NCBI GenBank assembly: GCA_040755095.1
Contig: JBFMBH010000024.1
Span: forward strand, 1-38,541
Direction of reading: 5' to 3'
DNA from: Thermodesulfobacteriota bacterium
GTDB taxonomy: Bacteria > Desulfobacterota > Desulfobulbia > Desulfobulbales > JBFMBH01
DNA: 38,541 nucleotides
This document shows, in pieces, positions 22,232-34,344 of the stretch. The notes under the pieces are model-generated. The model did not search any database. It worked only from the letters and a program-made list of their open reading frames with translations, and was not told where the DNA came from. Position numbers and translations under genes: made by a program. Each line of letters opens with the position of its first letter. Positions within the stretch are counted from its first letter, which is position 1.

Positions 22232-22250
22232 GGCGCCTCACCGAGGCGCC
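22232..22250. terminator. hairpin between convergent nikQ and selenoprotein genes
   Basis: GGCGCCTC and GAGGCGCC form a perfect eight-base-pair stem around ACC, eight bases after the nikQ stop and 14 bases past the end of the opposite gene. It can serve both strands. No U-run is seen. Confidence 0.55.
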
Positions 22251-22263
22251 GGGGCTATCGGCC

Positions 22264-23286
22264 TCAGGTGATGCCGGCGGCTGGCGTCACGGGCACCGCC
22301 GGCCGCGGGGGGGTGGTGGCCGGCGGTCCGCTTGCCGCGGCGCCTGCCAGCCTTTCGAAGGCCAGCTTGGTCTTGAACGAGCCGGTAGCCATGGCGATGG
22401 CCGTCACCTCCACCAGCTCCTGCTCGGAGGCGCCGCTTTGCCTCGCGACCGCGAGGCAGTAGTCCACTCAGGAGTCGCAGCCAACGGCCAGCGAGACCCC
22501 CAGGGCCACCAGATGCTTGACCTTGCCATCCAGGGCGCCAGGGCCGAAGGTTGCGCTGAAGAAGGCCTGGAAACTGGTCATGGGATCGTTCATGGATTTG
22601 GCCTCCGGGATGATGGGCAGGGGGATGACGGCGGCCCGCTTCTTCAGGGTAACCGTGAACAGGTCCCGGGGCAGGCTTCCCTCCTGCAGGCGCGCCAGCT
22701 CCAGCATCTCGAAGCCGTGCGCCAGGGCGCGGATCCTCTCCTCACTCAGGAAATGGATCACGAAGGGGCCGACCTCATAAAGGTCCTCGCCCAGGTGGGT
22801 CCCTGTCCGGTAATGGGGATCCAGGGTGCTGCGCACCGAATAGAAGGCCAGGCCGCCAGGCTTGAGCACCCGGTGGATCTCCCGGAGCGCCGAAGCGATC
22901 TGGGCGGTGGTCAGCTCCATGCACAGGAGCATGTGGGAGTAGCAGGCATCGAAGGAGGCATCCGGGAAGGGCAGCGGCTCCACCACATCGTGGAGCTGAG
23001 CGGCCACCAGGTCCGCCAGGCCGCGCTGCTGGGCCGCGGCCGCGATCTCCTTGACCGACCGCTCGGTATAGTCCAGGGCGGTGACCGCCAGGCCGGCCTC
23101 CGCAAAGAACAGCGTATCCCGCCCCTGACCTGGCCCCAGCTCCAGCAAGGACTGGACGCCAGCCTGGCGACAGGCCTCCAGGCTCTGCCGGGCAAACTGG
23201 CTGGGTCCCTTGCCGAAAAACGCCTCTGTCTCGGTGTAGACGCGACCCCAGTGCTCCTTCTGATCGGTTTGCGCACGCTTCGGCAT
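22264..23286 (-). CDS. methyltransferase/AhpD-like (CMD) fusion selenoprotein, UGA = Sec273
   Basis: Read through an in-frame TGA at 22470-22468, this is one 340-residue protein. Residues 35-215 form a class I SAM methyltransferase: motif I is LLELGPGQGRD at 47-57, with LDY at 71-73, FDACYSHMLL and LKPGGLAFYS. Residues 235-320 form a carboxymuconolactone decarboxylase/AhpD-like domain with KVKHLVALGVSLAVGC, then C270-D-S-U273-V-D-Y-C277. Sec takes the second Cys of the AhpD CxxC, and Cys replaces the His normally four residues later. A Pro/Ala tail ends it. GGGGAGGAGAGG precedes the ATG at 23286. The reading frame is intact on both sides, and a SECIS-like hairpin follows the TGA. The substrate is unknown; a redox-coupled methylation is an inference. 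The alternative is a nonsense mutation. Confidence 0.85.
22439..22458 (-). promoter_or_regulatory. bacterial SECIS-like hairpin
   Basis: On the minus strand, TGCCTCGC and GCGAGGCA form a perfect eight-base-pair stem around the loop GGTC. The stem starts ten bases after the TGA, and the loop G is the 18th base. Bacterial SECIS rules ask for a hairpin with a G at the first or second loop position roughly 16-37 bases from the UGA, and this meets them. Confidence 0.75.
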
Positions 23287-23355
23287 GCCTCTCCTCCCCA
23301 ATGGCATCCCCGGGCCACCCTGGCCCGCCATGACCCGCCAAGTCCTACCTGCCAC

Positions 23356-23712
23356 CTAGTCCGTCGCCAGGGCGGCCTCAACCAGATGAAGGTCTTTCAA
23401 GAGCGCACTCATCCTCCGAGGTGGCAACGGCAGGGCCTCTGCCTGTTCCCGCAGACCGGACGGCAGCTCAGCCACCGAGGGCCGCACCACCTTCCTCTTG
23501 GATTCCATGGCGGCACGCCACCTGAGGGCGAATCCGGACTGGTGCTTCTTCCATTCCTCGGCGATCTCCACGGTCATGACCACGCGATGACAGATCCGGA
23601 GAATCTGGATCAGGAAATCCCGGCAGGCCGTCGACACTGGATGCTCAGCCGAGCCGGCCGCCCGGGCAACGGAAGCGTCGATGACGATGGCCCGGGACAT
23701 CTTGCCGCTCAT
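23356..23712 (-). CDS. PIN-domain protein, C-terminally truncated
   Basis: The 118-residue protein starts like a PIN-type ribonuclease: IVIDASVARAAG with D12, then VVMTVEIAEEW with E49/E52/E53, and the family motif KDLHLVEAALATD with D107 and D118. A TAG then ends the frame, where relatives as I know them continue into a last strand of the RxVISLDE type. The four acidic residues remain but the closing strand is missing, and no continuation appears in the other two frames. The start overlaps the upstream ATPase stop by four bases, so the pair is translationally coupled. It may be a decaying or minimal nuclease component of an ATPase-nuclease defence-like pair. Confidence 0.65.
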   Translation of the reverse strand: MSGKMSRAIVIDASVARAAGSAEHPVSTACRDFLIQILRICHRVVMTVEIAEEWKKHQSGFALRWRAAMESKRKVVRPSVAELPSGLREQAEALPLPPRRMSALLKDLHLVEAALATD

Positions 23713-25061
23713 ACCGCCACACCCCGCTTCTCCACGGCGTCCAGATAGTCCTGCTCCGCCTGCAGGGCAACATCATCAAAGTCCTCCGGCCAGTCGCCGA
23801 AGGCGCCTTGCGGATCCAGATCGGCAGCGGTGACCTGCGTGGCACCTGTGGCAGCCTCCCGTTGGAACCAGTGGAGCCCGACCAGGGATGGCGACAGCTC
23901 GCCCCGCGCCACCTGGGTCTGGATGCCCCGCACCAGAAGAGCGCTGTGGGTCTCCACCACCGTGACAACGCCGCGGGTCGCCACCTTGGCCAGGACATCC
24001 GCCAGCCGTCGCTGTGCTCTGGGGTGCAAATGGATCTCGGGCTGCTCAAGATAGACAATCTGTCCGGGGCGGGCGGCCAGGAGCGCCACCAGGACCGGTA
24101 GTGTCTGGGACACGCCAAATCCCACGTCGGCGATGCTGACCAGATCATAAGCGCCGCCACGCTTGGCGTGGGGCATCCGGCCCACCCGCAGCTCGACCCG
24201 GGTGTCATCCAGCGGCTTCGCTTCCACCTTCCAGGTCAGACCAAGATCCTCCAGAACCGAGCTCAGCTCCTGGAGCTTCGGATCGCCGGTGGACTGCCAG
24301 TGGCTGATGATGCTGGCAATGTAGGCCTCGAAGGTACCGGGAAAGGTCTGCCCCACTGCCGTCGTCTTGTACGTCCTCTCCGGGTTGCCGCGCAACCCGG
24401 GAACGTGGATCATCTGCTCGATGAGGGGGCCCACCAGCACCGCAGGGGAGAAGGCCCTGGCCAGCCAGTCAGACCGGGGCACCTTTCCCGAACCGGCCAG
24501 CCCAAAGAACAGGAAACAGCGGTCCCGGGACACCACCCAGTGCAGATCCCATTTACCCCCGCCCGACATGTCTTCCCGCAGCCGCCGCAGGTGCTCGGGG
24601 AGGATGGCCTCGATCTCCTGATGGCTCATTCCCGGACGCAGGGCCGTCTTGTCGCCTGTCGCGGTGACATGGGTCAGATGGTCGATCTCCATGCCCATCC
24701 CGGGGATACGCTTGAAGCCCAGGCCCAGGGTGTCGCCGTCGGCCAGACCGAGCTCCATCGACAACATGGATGGGCAGGAGCCGGGCACCCGGCATGCCAA
24801 CTGCTCGGCCGAAGTCAGCCGAACGTTGGGGCCATCGAGCAGGAGCGCCCCCGGGTCGAATGGCGCCTCCAGAGTCTGCTTCAGGAGGAGGAGCGGCTGC
24901 ATCATGCTGGATTTGCCGGAGCTGTTGGCACCGGCCAGCACGGTAAGTGGCCGCAGGACGATGGCCTGCTCCTGGCATATCGACTTGTAGCCGCAGACCG
25001 CAAGTCGCGAGAGCCCAGGCCTCCCCCCTCCGGCTGGCCGTCTCTGTCTCTTCGTTCCCAT
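23709..25061 (-). CDS. AAA family ATPase, ABC/OLD-like (DUF3696-type tail)
   Basis: The 450-residue ATPase has Walker A GANSSGKSS at 44-52 and a Walker B region IVYLEQPEIHLHPRAQRRLADVL near 330-350. The H-loop-like THSALLVRGIQ follows, and the C-terminal GDWPEDFDDVAL resembles the DWPExF motif of DUF3696 ATPases. These are SMC/RecF-type nucleotide-binding cassettes, with the middle 200 residues as the inserted arm. The start at 25061 has GGGGTG about seven bases upstream; longer in-frame starts have no ribosome site. It precedes and overlaps the PIN-domain gene. ATPase plus nuclease pairs often act in phage defence, so that role is possible but not shown. Confidence 0.8.
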   Translation of the reverse strand: MGTKRQRRPAGGGRPGLSRLAVCGYKSICQEQAIVLRPLTVLAGANSSGKSSMMQPLLLLKQTLEAPFDPGALLLDGPNVRLTSAEQLACRVPGSCPSMLSMELGLADGDTLGLGFKRIPGMGMEIDHLTHVTATGDKTALRPGMSHQEIEAILPEHLRRLREDMSGGGKWDLHWVVSRDRCFLFFGLAGSGKVPRSDWLARAFSPAVLVGPLIEQMIHVPGLRGNPERTYKTTAVGQTFPGTFEAYIASIISHWQSTGDPKLQELSSVLEDLGLTWKVEAKPLDDTRVELRVGRMPHAKRGGAYDLVSIADVGFGVSQTLPVLVALLAARPGQIVYLEQPEIHLHPRAQRRLADVLAKVATRGVVTVVETHSALLVRGIQTQVARGELSPSLVGLHWFQREAATGATQVTAADLDPQGAFGDWPEDFDDVALQAEQDYLDAVEKRGVAV

Positions 25062-25382
25062 GGTGACACCCCATTGATCATCGGGATGGTGTTTGGAGAC
25101 GACCGGCATACCTCGGTCGTCGCTGCCCATCCATACCAGCTTGGCGGCAAAAGTGCCAGAACAAGAGCCGCGGCCGCCGGGGGGCTCTCCCGACTCAATC
25201 CGCGGAACAGATGACGCTGTACGGGATGGGGTAGGCGGCCGTTATGGTGCCGCCGGGGCAGGAGCAGCTGATCGGCGACGGTCAGCCATTGGCAATCGGG
25301 CGAGAAACGGCGCAGGCGGCCGTCCTCCGGGGGCTTGGAGTGGCGGGTGCTCCGAAAACGGGCAGCGGGACAGGCTGAGCGC
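25062..25382. other. intergenic region, no gene seen
   Basis: This 321-base stretch lies between the minus-strand DUF6812 gene and the minus-strand ATPase gene and should hold the ATPase promoter. I see no clear -35/-10 pair and no convincing gene. A long palindrome at its right end, partly in the DUF6812 stop region, is listed separately. Confidence 0.4.
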
Positions 25383-27253: not shown

Positions 27254-27778
27254 ATGCCTCCTCTTCGCGCTCTCCCGCTCCTCATCCTGATGGGCCTTCT
27301 CCTGGTAGCCGCCCCTGCCTGCGAACGGAGCGCCCCGCCACCGAAGACCGCTGTTGGCATCGGCCAGCCGGCACCCGACTTCCTGCTCCGGGACCTGGAG
27401 GGCAACAGCTGGTCCTTGACCGATCTGCGGGGCAACCTGGTATTTCTCAATTTCTGGGCCACCTGGTGCCCCCCCTGCCGGGAAGAGATGCCCTCCATGG
27501 AAGCCCTGCGGCAAGAGCTGGCGGGCCGCTCCTTCCGCATGGTCACCGTGCTGGGCAACGACGAGCCGGCCAATGCCCAGCGTTTCCTGGCCCGCATCGG
27601 CGCTGCCATGCCGGTCCTGCTGGATCCGGACGGCAGCACCACCCTGGCCTACGGCATCACCGGGGTTCCGGAAACCTTCATCATCGACAGCCAGGGTATC
27701 CTGCGGGAGCGGTTCATCGGCGGCCGCGACTGGAACAGTTCCAGCGCCAAAGCGATGCTGGCCCGCTACCTGCCCTGA
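27254..27778 (+). CDS. TlpA/ResA-like periplasmic thioredoxin
   Basis: The 174-residue protein has an N-terminal hydrophobic signal (LLILMGLLLVAAPAC) with C23 as a possible lipid anchor, though the lipobox is weak. A thioredoxin fold follows, with the redox pair C72-P-P-C75 in FWATWCPPCREEMPSM, the TlpA opening GQPAPDFLLRDLEG, and the cis-Pro segment GVPETFIIDSQG. It would reduce or shuttle disulfides in the envelope, for example for cytochrome c maturation. The ATG at 27254 has only a weak ribosome site. The stop is 22 bases before the tamB start, suggesting one transcript with the Tam genes. Unlike the DsbA-like gene at 37131, both active-site positions are Cys. Confidence 0.85.
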   Translation: MPPLRALPLLILMGLLLVAAPACERSAPPPKTAVGIGQPAPDFLLRDLEGNSWSLTDLRGNLVFLNFWATWCPPCREEMPSMEALRQELAGRSFRMVTVLGNDEPANAQRFLARIGAAMPVLLDPDGSTTLAYGITGVPETFIIDSQGILRERFIGGRDWNSSSAKAMLARYLP

Positions 27779-27800
27779 CCCTCGCCCTTCGGCTCCGGCC

Positions 27801-30800
27801 TTGAAACGCCTGGCCCGCAGCCTCGTTCTGCTGCTCCTGGCCCTGATCGGCCTCGGGGGCATTCTCTTGCGGGTTCGCCAGGCGTGGCTCCCCCCCCTCG
27901 TTGTCGCCTTTCTCCAGACGGAAGCCGACCGGCAAGGCTTGTCGTTGACGATCGACCACCTGGAAAGCGTCCCCTGGTCCGGGGTGACAGCGCGAGCCCT
28001 GACCCTCACCAGCCGCCAACCCGACCTGCCGCCTCTGCACCTGACCCTGGACCGGATCGAAATCCGGTACAACTTGGCGACCCTCCTTGCAGGGGGGGAT
28101 GCCTTTGTCCAGGCGGTGACGGTCCGGGCCACCGGCCTCCGGGGCGCCATCGACCTGGCTGCCACTCCGGCTGGGACCGACCACAGCGAGGCGCAGCCGC
28201 CAGCCTGGTCCCTGCCGGCCTTGCCCGATCTGCAACTGGAAGGGGTGGATCTTGCCCTCAGCACCACCCAGGGGGAGCTGGCCATCCACCAGGGACGACT
28301 GGACCTGGCGCCAGCGCCGCGAGAAGGGGGGATCGAGGCCCTCCTGAAGGCGGAAGAGCTGGAGCTGGACCTGGCCCCCCTGGCCCCGGCTCAGCTGCCT
28401 TTGCGGGCCCGGCTTGTCATCGGCCCCGGGTCGGTGCGCCTGCAGGAGCTGCAGCTGCGGGGCGAGGATGTGCCGGCCTCGGCGCGACTGTTCCAGCCAG
28501 CGACCGGGGCCGGCATCGGCCTGGAGATGGCGCTCCGGCTGGCCGGCGGCTCGCTTTCTGGCGAGGGGGTGTGGGCGCCGAGCCAGCTGACCGCCGCCTT
28601 CCGGGGCGAGAGCCTGGACCTGGAGAAGTGGCGCCAGCTGCTGCGGCAGCCGGAAATCGTACCGGCCGGCAGCCTCGATGCCGAGCTGGATCTGCGCCTG
28701 GATCCCCGGACCCCGGACCAGGCCGCAGGCCTTCTCCGACTGTCCTTCCAGGGCCAGCCGGCCGCCCCGCTGCAGGGCCTGGACCTGGCCGGTCAGCTGG
28801 AGGCCGGCACGCTGCGTCTGGACCGCCTGGGCATCTCGGTCCTGGGCAGCAGCCTGGCCAGCGATGGTCTGCTTCTGCCCTTGGCCCCCCTCCTGGCCGG
28901 CAACTGGTCCGGGATGCTGCAAGGCGCGTCTGGCCAGCTGCGAGGGGAGAGCAGCGATCTGCCGGCCATTCTCGCCCTTGTCGGCCAGCCGGTCCCGGAG
29001 CCGCGGGGGGGCTTTCCCGCCCACCGTTTGCTCCTGGCGGCCGATCTGGAGCAGGGACGGCTGGCGGTGACGGAGGGACGACTGGAGGCCGATGGCGTGG
29101 ACCTGCGCCTGGGCACGTCTGGACTCTTGCTGCCCCTGGCGCCACCGCCCGCGGCCGACACCCCCCTGACCGCCAGCCTGAAGGCCCGGATCACCGACCT
29201 TGGCCGCCTGGCCACCCTCTTCGGCCTGCCGCCCCTGGCCGGGGAGTTGACCGCCGACCTGCGTCTGACCGGCCAGCTTGGCGCGCCGCAAGGAGAGCTC
29301 GACCTGGCCGGCCGCCAGCTGGCCGTAGCCGGCCGGCCCCTGGGCAGCCTGCGGCTGGCCGCCAGCTTGGCCCCTGCCGCCATCCAGGTACGGGAGATCG
29401 ATCTTGACAACGGCCGTGACCGGGTCCAGGGACGATTGCGCCTCGACACCGCCAGACGGGCGCTGGAGGACGTGGACCTTACGGTCCGGATCCAGGATCT
29501 TGCCGCCTACACCTCGGACCTGCTGCCCCCGGCATGGGCAGTGGGCGGCAACCTCAAGGCTGAGATCGCCGGAGCGGGAGACGAGGGCAGCGCCCGGGGC
29601 GCCTTTTCTGCCCACATCGCCGGTCTCACCTGGCAAGGCCAGCAGCTGGGTGACTTGGCCGCCCGGGGGCGAGTGAGCCCCCATGCCCTGACCCTGGAGG
29701 CCCTGAACGTGACCCGGGCCGGGGATCGGCTGGACGCGCAGGGCAGCTGGAATTTTACCGACGAGCTTCTGGAAGGGGGAGAGGCCTGGCTGACCATCCG
29801 GGATCTGGCCGCCTGGCAAGGCCTGTGGCCTGGGAGCTGGCCAGCCCTGGCCGGGTCCTTGAGCGCCCGCGCCGCCGCCAGCGGCCCCTGGGCCAAGCCG
29901 CATTTGCAGGCACGCGCAACCTGGCAGCAGCCGCGGCTCGGCTCCTGGCTGGGTGAAGAGGCGCTCCTGGAGGCCGCTGGCCCTTGGACCGGCCTTGCCG
30001 TGACCGCCCAGCTCACGGCACCGCGGTTGGGGAGCCTCGCTATGGAAGGAACGTTGGCGGCTGGGGCAAGAGGCCAGGTCAAGCTCGACCGGCTGGCCTG
30101 GCGGGGAGCGGACTGGCATTTCCAGCTGGCGGCGCCCGCGGCCATCGGCTGGCAGGATGATCAGGTGACGGTGGCCGACCTGCAGCTGACCGGCAGCGCC
30201 GGCCGCCTGCGGCTGACCGGCTCGGTGCAGCCGGCCGGCAACAGCGACCTGACCCTGGAGCTGGCGGAGCTGGCCAGCCACGGCTGGCTGGCGGCCGTCA
30301 TCGACCGGCCATTCACCTTCCAGGGCCTGTCCGCCAGCCTGCACCTGGCGGGCCCGGCGGTCCGGCCGTATCTGCACCTGGCGGGTGATGTCCAGGAGCT
30401 GGGCGCCCTGGAAGAGGGCCCGCCCTTTGCCGGTCGCTTCGATCTCGTTCTGGATTCGTCCGGCCTTACGGTCGCCGACTTCGACTGGCAGGCCACTGGC
30501 GGCAACCGGATCCGGCTGGCCGGCCGGCTGCCCCTCTCACCATGGGGCGCGCAGCCGGTAGCCCCAGGGGATTTGTCCGTGCGCGGCAGCATCGACCTGC
30601 CGGATCTCAACACCCTGCTCGCCATCGTCGCCCCGGAGGCGCAAACCGGCGGCAGCCTCCAGGGGAGCCTGGAGCTGTCGGGCTCGGCAGCGGCGCCCAG
30701 CGGCCACCTGGAGCTGACGGCCAGCGGCCTGTCGGCGCCGGCCGGCCTGCCCCTGCGGCCGCCCGGTCCTTTCGCCGGCCGGGCGGTGATCGTTGCCACA

Positions 30801-32177
30801 GCAGACGGCCTGGAGCTGACCGAGCTGCAGGTGACCTCCCCGGCCCTCACGGCGACTGGCAGCGGCCGCTGGCAGGGTCTGCCGGTGCTTCTTGAGCTGC
30901 TCCGCCTGCGTTGGCCCGGCGGCGGAGGCTCGGTAGCCGGCCGCCTGGGCTTGCAGGCTCCGGACTGCTCCTGGGCCGCGGCTCAGCTTGCCGGCATCCG
31001 CCGCCTGACCGGTGGGCTGAACGCCGAGATGACCCTGAGTGGGCCCGCCGGCCAGCCCAGCCTGACCGGACTTGTCCGGCTCTCCGGCGGCGAAGTCCGG
31101 CCGGATCTCGCCATCCCGGCCGTGCGCCAGCTGGAGGCGACGGCACGCCTGAACGGCCAGGAGGCCGTGATCGAGCTCATGACTGGCGAGCTGGGCGGCT
31201 CACCGTTTGCCGTCAGCGGCGCTGTCCGCTGGCCAGGCCCTGGGCCGGCCTCCTGGGATCTGCGGCTGACCGGCCGCCATCTCCTCTTCTACCGCGACGA
31301 AGGGCTGAAGGTGCGCGCGGATGCCGATCTGGCCCTGACCGGCACCCTGGCCAAGCCAGAGCTGTCCGGCCAGCTCATGCTCACCGACGGCCGCCTGGTG
31401 CGCAACCTGGACTTCCTGCGCCTGCTCCGCGCCGATGGCCGGCCGGCCGGCAACGGTCTGCTGCCCCTCTTCTCGCTCACCGAGCCGCCAGCCAGGGATC
31501 TGACCTTCGACCTGACCATCGGCAGCCACGCCCCCTTTCTGATCAGGAGCAACATGGCGGCGGGCTCCCTGCGGCCGAGCCTGCGGTTGCAGGGCACCGG
31601 CGAGCTGCCGATCCTGGCCGGCGAGGTGTACGTGGATGCGACCCAGGTGCCCCTGCCGGCTGGACGGCTGCTCATCGAGACCGGGGTGATCCGCTTCGCT
31701 GAAAGCCAGGCCGAGGATGCCTCGTTGAGCCTGTCCGGCAGGAGCCGCCTGCGTGGCTATGATGTTGCCGCGGCGATCCAGGGCACCCTGGCCGAGCCGG
31801 TGGTCACCCTGTCCTCCAACCCGCCGCTGCCGGACGACGAGCTTCTGCTCCTGTTTCTGACCGGTCAGCTGCCCCAGAAGGGCAGCCAGCCCGCCCCCCG
31901 GGGCAGCCGCAACACCGCGGTCATGGTGTACGTGGGCCGGAGCCTCCTTGGGCAGATCCTGGGGCAGGAGAGCGTGGAGGCGGACGAATCGGTTCTGGAC
32001 CGGTTGGACGTGGAGGTCGGTCGAGAGATGACCCGGGAAGGCGAGGAGACCATCGACGCCCAGTTCCGCCTGGGCGAAAGCCTCGTGCGCGAGGGTGACA
32101 CCCTGTACCTGACTGCGGACAAGGATGTCTACGACTTCTACAACGTAGGGCTCAAGCTTGTCTTCCGCTTCCGATAG
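27801..32177 (+). CDS. tamB: translocation and assembly module protein TamB (AsmA-like)
   Basis: The 1458-residue protein has an N-terminal membrane anchor (RLARSLVLLLLALIGLGGILL). It continues as repetitive beta-rich sequence over more than 1200 residues, typical of the TamB/AsmA-like family that forms a hydrophobic groove across the periplasm for phospholipid or protein transfer. The last 350 residues match the TamB C-terminal domain, with RDLTFDLTIGSHAPFLIRS, GELPILAGEVYVD, FAESQAEDASLSLSG and ELLLLFLTGQLPQ. The likely start is TTG at 27801: no ATG or GTG fits before the anchor. The gene overlaps tamA by 20 bases and would work with it. Confidence 0.85.
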   Translation: MKRLARSLVLLLLALIGLGGILLRVRQAWLPPLVVAFLQTEADRQGLSLTIDHLESVPWSGVTARALTLTSRQPDLPPLHLTLDRIEIRYNLATLLAGGDAFVQAVTVRATGLRGAIDLAATPAGTDHSEAQPPAWSLPALPDLQLEGVDLALSTTQGELAIHQGRLDLAPAPREGGIEALLKAEELELDLAPLAPAQLPLRARLVIGPGSVRLQELQLRGEDVPASARLFQPATGAGIGLEMALRLAGGSLSGEGVWAPSQLTAAFRGESLDLEKWRQLLRQPEIVPAGSLDAELDLRLDPRTPDQAAGLLRLSFQGQPAAPLQGLDLAGQLEAGTLRLDRLGISVLGSSLASDGLLLPLAPLLAGNWSGMLQGASGQLRGESSDLPAILALVGQPVPEPRGGFPAHRLLLAADLEQGRLAVTEGRLEADGVDLRLGTSGLLLPLAPPPAADTPLTASLKARITDLGRLATLFGLPPLAGELTADLRLTGQLGAPQGELDLAGRQLAVAGRPLGSLRLAASLAPAAIQVREIDLDNGRDRVQGRLRLDTARRALEDVDLTVRIQDLAAYTSDLLPPAWAVGGNLKAEIAGAGDEGSARGAFSAHIAGLTWQGQQLGDLAARGRVSPHALTLEALNVTRAGDRLDAQGSWNFTDELLEGGEAWLTIRDLAAWQGLWPGSWPALAGSLSARAAASGPWAKPHLQARATWQQPRLGSWLGEEALLEAAGPWTGLAVTAQLTAPRLGSLAMEGTLAAGARGQVKLDRLAWRGADWHFQLAAPAAIGWQDDQVTVADLQLTGSAGRLRLTGSVQPAGNSDLTLELAELASHGWLAAVIDRPFTFQGLSASLHLAGPAVRPYLHLAGDVQELGALEEGPPFAGRFDLVLDSSGLTVADFDWQATGGNRIRLAGRLPLSPWGAQPVAPGDLSVRGSIDLPDLNTLLAIVAPEAQTGGSLQGSLELSGSAAAPSGHLELTASGLSAPAGLPLRPPGPFAGRAVIVATADGLELTELQVTSPALTATGSGRWQGLPVLLELLRLRWPGGGGSVAGRLGLQAPDCSWAAAQLAGIRRLTGGLNAEMTLSGPAGQPSLTGLVRLSGGEVRPDLAIPAVRQLEATARLNGQEAVIELMTGELGGSPFAVSGAVRWPGPGPASWDLRLTGRHLLFYRDEGLKVRADADLALTGTLAKPELSGQLMLTDGRLVRNLDFLRLLRADGRPAGNGLLPLFSLTEPPARDLTFDLTIGSHAPFLIRSNMAAGSLRPSLRLQGTGELPILAGEVYVDATQVPLPAGRLLIETGVIRFAESQAEDASLSLSGRSRLRGYDVAAAIQGTLAEPVVTLSSNPPLPDDELLLLFLTGQLPQKGSQPAPRGSRNTAVMVYVGRSLLGQILGQESVEADESVLDRLDVEVGREMTREGEETIDAQFRLGESLVREGDTLYLTADKDVYDFYNVGLKLVFRFR

Positions 32178-34344
32178 ACCCTGTTTCTGGCAGAAGACGC
32201 CAGGGGGCAGCCCCACGGCGCAGGCATTCCGCAGCCTGCTGCTGTGGCTGGTCGTCCTTGGTCTGGTGCTGCCCGGCCCGACTGGCGCCGCCCAGGAAAC
32301 TGTGCTCCCCCTCCTGCCAGGGGTCAGGAGCTACCGCCTCGACTTCCAAGGCAACGAACGGCTGTCGACCTGGCAGCTTGGGGAGGCGATTCAGGAGGAG
32401 CGGGCTGACCTTGACCGGCAAGGGCCGAGCGCGGCCATTGCTGACGACGCCGCCTTCCAGATCGAGCTGGCCTACCGGCGCGCCGGCCATCCCTTCGCCG
32501 AGGTGCACTATGCGATCGAGGCCGGCCAGCCGGCCGTCATCACCTTCCGGATCAACGAGGGTCCTCTGGTTCGCATCCGGGATCTGCGCCTGGTGGGCAA
32601 CCGCGACGTCACCGCTGAGGAGCTGGCCCCGTTCCTGAAAGCGCACGGCCTGACCATCGGCCCGGGCACGGCGATCTTCGAGCAGGCGGGGCTGGAGGCC
32701 GCAGCCAGTGAGATGCGGGACTTCTATCTCGGGGAAGGCTTTCGCCAGGCGCGTGTCCGCCCGCACGTGGAGATCGACCGTGGTGCCGGGGCCGCCGTGG
32801 TGGAGATGGCCATCGAGGAGGGGAGCCGCGCCATGATCCGGGAGGTACGCTTTGCCGGCGAGGTGCTGCCGGATGCTGCCGCGCCCCTGGCGCAGCTGGC
32901 CGCCGAGATCACGGATACCGCCTATGTGGTCCGCAAGCGGCTGCTCCTGCGCAGCCGAGTCCTCCAGGTTTATGGCGAGCGCGGCTATCCGGAGGCCAGC
33001 GTGGCGATCGAGGAGGTGGCGGGTGCGGAGCCAGGGGACCTCGGTCTGGTGGTGCAAATCACCCCCGGCCCCTGGGTCCGGATCAGCGAGGTGGTCATCA
33101 CCGGCAACGACAAGACCCGGGATGACTTCATCCGGAGCCGCCTGCAGCTGCAGCCTGGCCAGGCCTTCGACCTGGCAGCCAGAAGGGGTAGCTTCCACGA
33201 GCTGTACAGCACAGGGCTGTTCTCGGAGGTGGCCTTGGATCTGGAGCCGGATGGGGCCAGGGAGGCCCGGCGGCTGACCGTGCGGGTAACCGAAGCGCCC
33301 AGCCGGGAGCTGTTCGTGGAGCCCGGTTGGGGGTCGTATGAGCTGGCCCGTCTCGGTCTCGGCTACACCGACCGCAACCTGCAAGGCAGCGGCCGGGTCT
33401 TCCAGGCCGAGGGCGGGGTCTCGGTGAAAGGGGAGCGGCTGCAGCTGGCGTTTACCGACCCCTGGCTGCTGGGCTCGGATCTGACCGCCAGCCTGCCAGT
33501 GTCGTACCGGCGGCGGGAGGAGCCCTCCTTTACCCGGCGGGAGGCCATCGTCACTGCTCAGCTTTCCCGGCAGCTCTCCGACGCCGCGACGGCCTCCCTG
33601 GCCTATGCCGGCAGCACGACCCGGATCACCGACCTGGCCGCCGGCGCAACCCTGGAGGCCAGCGACACCGACTACAACCTGGCCAGCCTCCGGGCGCAAG
33701 GCACCTTCGATACCCGGGATGATCTCTTCTTCCCCACCACCGGTTGGCGATTGGCCATGGGCCTGGAGACCGCCGATCCCCTGCTGGGCAGCCAGATCGG
33801 CTTCGTGCGCTGGACCGCCAGCGCCCGCCACTTCTTGCAACTGGGACCGCAATCAGTGCTGGGCCTGCGCTACGCCACCGGCCTCATCCTGCCCGGCCGC
33901 GGCCAGGTGACCATCCCGGTCAGCGAACGGTTTTTCAACGGTGGTGAGGGCTCGGTGCGCAGCTTCGAGGAGTCCCAGCTCGGCCCCCGGGATCCGGCTG
34001 CCGGTGAGCCTCTGGGCGGCAACGCCTACAACGTCCTCACCCTGGAGCTCCGGCGCCGCCTGGGGGAGAGCTGGGCGGGGAGCCTGTTCGTGGATGCCGG
34101 CAACATCTCCCCCAACCGCTCCCGGGCCGAGCGTGGTCTGCCCCCCTATAACGACTCATCCCAGGTGGTTGCGGCCACCTGGGATGAGTATCTCCGGGAT
34201 TTCCGGGCCGGGATCGGGATGGGGCTCCAGTACCTCCTGCCCGTGGGGCCGGCCCGGGTCGACCTGGCGGTCAACCCATGGCCGGACGAGGACCGGGGCG
34301 AAGAGCCCTATGCCGTCCACCTCAGTGTCGGCATGGCGTTCTAG
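32158..34344 (+). CDS. tamA: TamA/BamA family outer-membrane assembly protein
   Basis: The 728-residue protein has a signal peptide (about 22-45: AFRSLLLWLVVLGLVLPG, cleavage near GAA). About four POTRA-like repeats span about 53-385, with markers such as DLRLVGNRDVTAEEL, EVRFAGEVLPD and EVVITGNDKTRDDFIRSRL. The C-terminal beta-barrel (about 390-728) carries FFNGGEGSVRSFEESQLGPR, close to the VRGY-type loop motif of the family, and ends in aromatic-type SVGMAF. Four POTRA units differ from three in E. coli TamA and five in BamA. The start is TTG at 32158, inside the end of tamB. Partnership with TamB is inferred from adjacency. A 15-bp inverted repeat lies within the gene. Confidence 0.85.
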   Translation: MSSASDRPCFWQKTPGGSPTAQAFRSLLLWLVVLGLVLPGPTGAAQETVLPLLPGVRSYRLDFQGNERLSTWQLGEAIQEERADLDRQGPSAAIADDAAFQIELAYRRAGHPFAEVHYAIEAGQPAVITFRINEGPLVRIRDLRLVGNRDVTAEELAPFLKAHGLTIGPGTAIFEQAGLEAAASEMRDFYLGEGFRQARVRPHVEIDRGAGAAVVEMAIEEGSRAMIREVRFAGEVLPDAAAPLAQLAAEITDTAYVVRKRLLLRSRVLQVYGERGYPEASVAIEEVAGAEPGDLGLVVQITPGPWVRISEVVITGNDKTRDDFIRSRLQLQPGQAFDLAARRGSFHELYSTGLFSEVALDLEPDGAREARRLTVRVTEAPSRELFVEPGWGSYELARLGLGYTDRNLQGSGRVFQAEGGVSVKGERLQLAFTDPWLLGSDLTASLPVSYRRREEPSFTRREAIVTAQLSRQLSDAATASLAYAGSTTRITDLAAGATLEASDTDYNLASLRAQGTFDTRDDLFFPTTGWRLAMGLETADPLLGSQIGFVRWTASARHFLQLGPQSVLGLRYATGLILPGRGQVTIPVSERFFNGGEGSVRSFEESQLGPRDPAAGEPLGGNAYNVLTLELRRRLGESWAGSLFVDAGNISPNRSRAERGLPPYNDSSQVVAATWDEYLRDFRAGIGMGLQYLLPVGPARVDLAVNPWPDEDRGEEPYAVHLSVGMAF
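34154..34189. repeat. perfect 15-bp inverted repeat inside tamA
   Basis: ACTCATCCCAGGTGG (34154-34168) is exactly reversed and complemented at 34175-34189, with a six-base spacer. It encodes the SSQVVAATWDEY part of the barrel near the C-terminus. A hairpin this long and perfect is not expected by chance in a coding region. Confidence 0.85.

Follow-up and report, generated by a model that had tools for sequence, protein, structure and literature searches.

A methyltransferase–AhpD fusion of the MduS family that very probably carries two selenocysteines, the second in a C-terminal tail

The 38,541-nucleotide window analyzed here (the whole stretch of contig JBFMBH010000024.1 from a Thermodesulfobacteriota bacterium) contains on its minus strand a gene that we assign, with high confidence and on sequence evidence, to the MduS family of methyltransferase–AhpD fusions with two selenocysteines (Sec). 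The initial annotation had read one in-frame UGA of this gene as Sec and the next as its end, which appears to have been half right: a second Sec is very probably disguised as a stop codon, with its SECIS element lying past the real stop, so that plain annotation would yield a truncated methyltransferase of 272 residues. The additions made here are the second Sec, a hairpin in the 3' untranslated region with covariation, relatives that keep the Sec tail without an AhpD domain, and a count of ArsR proximity. The features of the gene are as follows.

22255–23286, minus strand: mduS coding sequence, 343 amino acids with two predicted Sec, from the ATG at 23286 to the TAG stop at 22255–22257 (translation and NF045649 match)
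23288–23299, minus strand: Shine-Dalgarno-like purine-rich stretch GGGGAGGAGAGG, directly 5' of the ATG (read in the sequence)
22639–23178, minus strand: class I SAM methyltransferase domain, residues ~37–216 (Pfam, alignment of 26 relatives, structural model and Foldseek)
22366–22578, minus strand: AhpD/CMD domain, residues 237–307 (PF02627, TIGR00778 and the model, which is all-helical here)
22468–22470, minus strand: UGA codon 1, predicted Sec273 of C270-D-S-U273 (TGA kept in relatives; Cys in L059, as CEPC)
22439–22458, minus strand: bSECIS-type hairpin 1, UGCCUCGC-GGUC-GCGAGGCA, its loop 17 nt after UGA 1 (fits the bSECIS model)
22264–22266, minus strand: UGA codon 2, predicted Sec341 in the tail ...GIT-U-G-R-stop (tail motif kept in relatives; NF045649 match reaches the tail)
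22232–22250, minus strand: bSECIS-type hairpin 2, GGCGCCUC-GGU-GAGGCGCC, past the stop codon, its loop 21 nt after UGA 2 (compensatory changes across 14 relatives)

Family assignment

The mduS frame has a single internal TGA at codon 273; the next TGA is codon 341, followed by codons for Gly and Arg and then by TAG. Its product matched NF045649 (2X_seleno_MduS, 'methyltransferase domain-containing selenoprotein MduS') at 466.9 bits (E=3e-140), above the whole-protein cutoff of 380 bits, and when the U-G-R tail was added the match rose to 469.1 bits and covered model positions 2–337 of 338. The N-terminal part matched Methyltransf_11 (Pfam, 6e-19), bearing out the earlier claim of a full SAM methyltransferase upstream of the AhpD domain, and the C-terminal part matched AhpD/CMD (Pfam, PF02627, 4.8e-15). 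The protein therefore has the MduS order of a methyltransferase followed by an AhpD/CMD domain with CxxU, and its host has selA, selB, selD and tRNA-Sec for inserting Sec; the second Sec, with its conserved tail and own hairpin, is predicted from sequence alone.

MduS is listed in a 2026 review (PMC13188914) as a CxxU protein with two Sec, and the review credits it to Haft & Tolstoy 2025 (mSystems 10:e0141724). Because of this listing and the NF045649 match, the methyltransferase–AhpD fusion is already known, and the window protein is a further member of a named family. It resembles other MduS proteins in its whole-length match, domain order, CxxU and C-terminal Sec tail, but it is ~52–57% identical to the full-length relatives compared, and its gene is isolated, without the ArsR, ABC-exporter or DJ-1 neighbors of other genomes.

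Several other known systems share parts of this architecture. The arsenite methyltransferase/AhpD domain selenoprotein family NF041537 likewise has a methyltransferase followed by an AhpD domain with CxxU, and in two of its members (L057 and L060) a further UGA lies close to the C-terminus, whereas its methyltransferase is of ArsM type with a UGA of its own. The window protein was rejected as a member, since it scored 125 bits where the cutoff is 510, and the stretch that matched best was the AhpD part. In profile searches its methyltransferase was generic, falling far below the ArsM and TehB cutoffs. The tellurite-resistance methyltransferase TehB shares the class I fold, with Foldseek and Pfam matches, but has neither an AhpD domain nor Sec, and was rejected at 30.4 bits against the TIGR00477 cutoff of 219.5. 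Classical AhpD (CxxC...His) was also rejected, as the His four residues after the second Cys is absent and residue 277 is Cys here. The UXX-star and UXPK-star families (NF041114, NF041211 and NF047649) have, by name, a Sec near the stop in a C-terminal tail, but on another protein body, and the match to NF047649 was 41 bits against a cutoff of 460. Among the sequences compared were also four NF041537-like ArsM–AhpD fusions (L055, L057, L060 and L061) with one UGA in the methyltransferase and another in the AhpD CxxU; the third, C-terminal UGA of L057 and L060 lies in L060 within the ending ...GGTUPR-stop.

Two UGA codons and their hairpins

The host genome assembly (4.52 Mb in 255 contigs, 99.8% complete) gave profile matches to SelB (358 bits), SelA (604 bits) and SelD (348 bits) and contains a tRNA-Sec (74.7 bits) with anticodon TCA. 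The initial annotation had named a genome without selB or selC as grounds for abandoning its reading; selA, selB, selD and tRNA-Sec were all found, and with selB and tRNA-Sec in the host that first objection therefore falls away. The host selD gene (L018, G000:C121:5522-6445) has one in-frame TGA itself, so SelD is probably a selenoprotein too.

At the first UGA, the in-frame TGA placed at the second position of the CxxC-like motif was confirmed together with its frame, the motif and both flanking domains. Full-length relatives in at least 10 other genomes keep a TGA at the codon-273 position, and in L059 Cys replaces Sec at this AhpD position; the homologs with Sec or Cys at 273 that the initial annotation had anticipated thus exist, with the same methyltransferase–AhpD layout. 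Host Sec machinery, conserved TGA and these homologs together support its claim of a CxxU selenoprotein. Its extended C-x2-U-x3-C site held up in part: Cys277 is present, but it does not belong to a family active site, because the alignment has S or G at residue 277 in the other full-length MduS proteins. Cys at the 277-equivalent position occurs in the related ArsM–AhpD fusions L055, L057, L060 and L061.

The TGA at 22264–22266 is very probably a second Sec (Sec341) rather than a stop, because relatives with two TGAs and relatives that have no AhpD domain both keep the U-G-x tail. The real stop would therefore be the TAG at 22255–22257, and the earlier 340-residue reading, which ended at 22264, is replaced by a frame that continues through UGA 2 to 22255 and encodes 343 amino acids. 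The relatives end in [PA]-G-x-T-U-G-[VRK]-stop, closed by TAA, TAG or TGA, with S instead of G after U in L024. Both TGAs are present in eight other loci of the phylum; a ninth, G305 C291, was scored with one TGA but apparently corresponds to the gene L024, in which both are read. L022, L023 and L092 are additional relatives that support the conserved TGAs. Since the tail is also found on the AhpD-less relatives L025, L027/L044, L029 and L030, conservation of UGA 2 does not depend on the AhpD domain. In none of the relatives compared did we see a Cys in place of the tail Sec.

Alternatively, UGA 1 alone could encode Sec and UGA 2 be the ordinary stop of a 340-residue protein. In favor of this, chance can place an in-frame TGA within three codons of a TAG, and most descriptions put bacterial SECIS elements inside coding sequence (PMC13188914). 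We consider this alternative very improbable, given that the tail motif, its position and the post-stop hairpin are kept in relatives with compensatory changes, that MduS is curated as a double selenoprotein, and that L092, which was left out of the alignment, repeats the same tail and hairpin. There is a negligible probability that the TGAs reflect an assembly error or the mutational decay of a pseudogene: although the assembly is a draft of 255 contigs, the TGA positions are identical in many genomes, the frame is otherwise intact and the Sec machinery is present.

As Rfam at its gathering threshold gave no RNA family in the window, we examined bSECIS elements by hand with controls. The published bSECIS model has a loop of 3–9 nt, a stem of 4–16 bp and a G among the first two loop nucleotides, at 16–37 nt from the UGA and with an energy of <= -7.5 kcal/mol (PMC13188914). 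Both hairpins lie within these limits: each has 8 bp and a loop starting with GG, with a spacing of 17 nt and an energy of -14.5 kcal/mol for hairpin 1, and 21 nt and -14.9 kcal/mol for hairpin 2. When all 821 TGAs of the window were ranked with a bSECIS-like filter (best hairpin 15–24 nt away, G near the loop start), hairpin 1 came 6th and hairpin 2 came 3rd; under a looser filter, hairpins of <= -14 kcal/mol followed ~3% of 430 open-frame TGA stops. Folded alone, the two hairpin regions were each mildly unusual (z ~ -1.8 for hairpin 1 and ~ -1.7 for hairpin 2).

Full-length MduS relatives have a hairpin 16–21 nt after each UGA, again with a G among the first two nucleotides of the loop, and some of their second hairpins are weak (-4.7 kcal/mol with a 5-bp stem), the short stem alone missing the energy limit of the model. 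For hairpin 1 we counted 6 double-changed cells against 1.4 in shuffled alignments, and for hairpin 2, across 14 relatives, 10 against 3.3; none of 500 shuffles reached 6 or 10, respectively, in a comparison that ignores the relatedness of the sequences. Sliding the hairpin partners out of register, as a control, abolished pairing. Hairpin 2 is non-coding, lying wholly past the stop, and its pairs switch among GC, AU and CG. Support for these putative elements thus comes from conservation and covariation, not from folding energy alone.

Methyltransferase lineage and a proposed mechanism

Across the 26 aligned relatives, C115, H118 and C122 are invariant. In the structural model these residues occupy the end of strand 112–118, the fourth strand at the motif IV position, and the loop that follows; the fourth strand of class I methyltransferases borders the substrate site. 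U273 is at the start of helix 271–283. The methyltransferase part was modeled with high pLDDT, whereas the linker (227–238) and the tail (322–343) had pLDDT below 50, which for the tail is consistent with a mobile, disordered C-terminal arm. Foldseek matches of the methyltransferase model were 2p8j, METTL6 and TehB, and a further relative was 4nec, a natural-product enzyme that converts a disulfide to a thioacetal.

In a tree of the methyltransferase domain, most methyltransferase-only forms were outermost and the tail-only forms L029, L030 and L044 branched next. The full-length clade also contains L025 (Geobacteraceae; AhpD apparently lost, tail kept) and L026 and L028, which have lost both. 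Because the tree was midpoint-rooted and support was moderate at several forks, the order in which the MduS methyltransferase lineage would have gained first the tail and later the AhpD domain is a suggestion. It is rather doubtful that the core Sec element of this lineage is the Sec arm instead of the AhpD domain; in that reading, the mobile selenol of the arm would bind or reduce a metal(loid) directly in the methyltransferase site, and AhpD would have joined later as its reductase. A search of literature other than the primary MduS description found no published statement of this tail-first or core-arm reading. The AhpD-less forms, which end in T-U-G-x with a hairpin downstream, are located at L025:5001-5750, L027/L044:812-1579, L029:4992-5732 and L030:2022-2738. 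We did not find mduS in any of the 17 closely related genomes searched, and the relatives on plasmids were distant methyltransferase-only forms in Streptomyces, with nothing else.

We propose, tentatively and at somewhat less than even confidence, that MduS is a Sec-assisted methyltransferase for which a metal(loid) or a chalcogen is the acceptor and the AhpD CxxU the reductant. The host SelA, SelB, SelD and tRNA-Sec would read both UGAs as Sec, each steered by the hairpin directly downstream. The methyl group of SAM would be transferred by the methyltransferase to a soft metal(loid) or chalcogen bound to a thiol or selenol, for which arsenic-like substrates or reactive Se, Te or S are candidates, and C115, H118 and C122, where motif IV borders the SAM pocket, would help to hold the substrate. 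The flexible Sec tail would reach the methyltransferase site, either to bind the substrate or to supply it with electrons. Between methyl transfers, the tail or the substrate would be reduced again by C270/U273 of the AhpD domain. This idea is open to testing through the ArsR neighborhoods described below, the invariant residues C115, H118 and C122, and the tail forms that lack AhpD.

Selenoproteins of AhpD type are generally regarded as redox enzymes, and an AhpD core with CxxU is present here. MduS might accordingly be an AhpD-type peroxidase or thiol-disulfide enzyme whose methyltransferase acts on some unrelated small molecule or has a purely regulatory role. This is unlikely, however, in the light of the relatives that have a methyltransferase and a Sec tail but no AhpD domain and of the many that are methyltransferase-only, which together make the methyltransferase the constant part; the invariance of C115, H118 and C122 also argues against it.

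Gene neighborhood and candidate substrates

In the window mduS stands alone. Upstream on the same strand are an AAA_21 ATPase and a small unknown protein, and downstream is the convergent cbiQ. Except for this cobalt-transport gene, no metal-related neighbors were recognized in the window, and no ArsR-type match was found on its contig.

Outside the window, MduS genes lie near ArsR/SmtB regulators far more often than genome-wide density predicts. Such regulators are within ~1.5 kb of mduS in G267, G223, G021, G285 and at both G363 loci, which are AhpD-less forms; G021 and G223 are not independent, since they come from one family. These genomes have 5–13 ArsR/SmtB genes each in 3.0–5.6 Mb, from which we calculate an expectation of ~0.01–0.02 per locus. 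In G244 the nearest ArsR/SmtB gene is ~13 kb away, and none was found within 6 kb of mduS in G343, G305, G176, G478 or the host (G000), two of the first four loci being on short contigs. Other neighbors at some loci include a MacB-type ABC permease, a phosphorylase-superfamily protein, a methionine gamma-lyase-like enzyme, a second small methyltransferase, DJ-1/PfpI and HMA proteins.

The ArsR/SmtB neighbors elsewhere lend indirect support to the earlier guess of a redox-coupled methylation of a metalloid or thiol, which is plausible. A narrower alternative, partly overlapping our proposed mechanism, is that MduS acts on a small thiol or selenol, organic or inorganic (such as sulfide, selenide or some xenobiotic thiol), and not on an arsenic-like metalloid. 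The Foldseek relatives TehB and 4nec agree with this, as does the methionine gamma-lyase-like gene near some mduS genes, which points to sulfur or selenium metabolism. By contrast, the ArsR/SmtB regulators near mduS, and the parallel ArsM–AhpD family NF041537 with its identical layout, favor metalloids. We regard a thiol or selenol substrate of this kind as somewhat unlikely.

In other genomes (L066:7450-12638, L070:6595-14907 and L072:1088-4991), mduS lies beside an ArsR-type regulator or a MacB-type permease. Its neighbors there are DJ-1/PfpI, a methionine gamma-lyase-like enzyme and the second methyltransferase, which is small and has the sequence MKxRESGMPD..., and this neighborhood is possibly a metal(loid) handling cluster. 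A search of the host genome with one query protein, run without a positive control, did not find the companion small methyltransferase.

Two further groups of genes were observed in the window. The AAA_21 ATPase and then the small unknown protein, of 118 residues, occupy 23356–25130 on the minus strand directly upstream of mduS, and might form a defense-type pair, with a weak MADS3 match below cutoff. At 27573–34344 on the plus strand, a TamB-like protein is followed by an Omp85 outer-membrane protein, a pair that corresponds to the translocation and assembly module.
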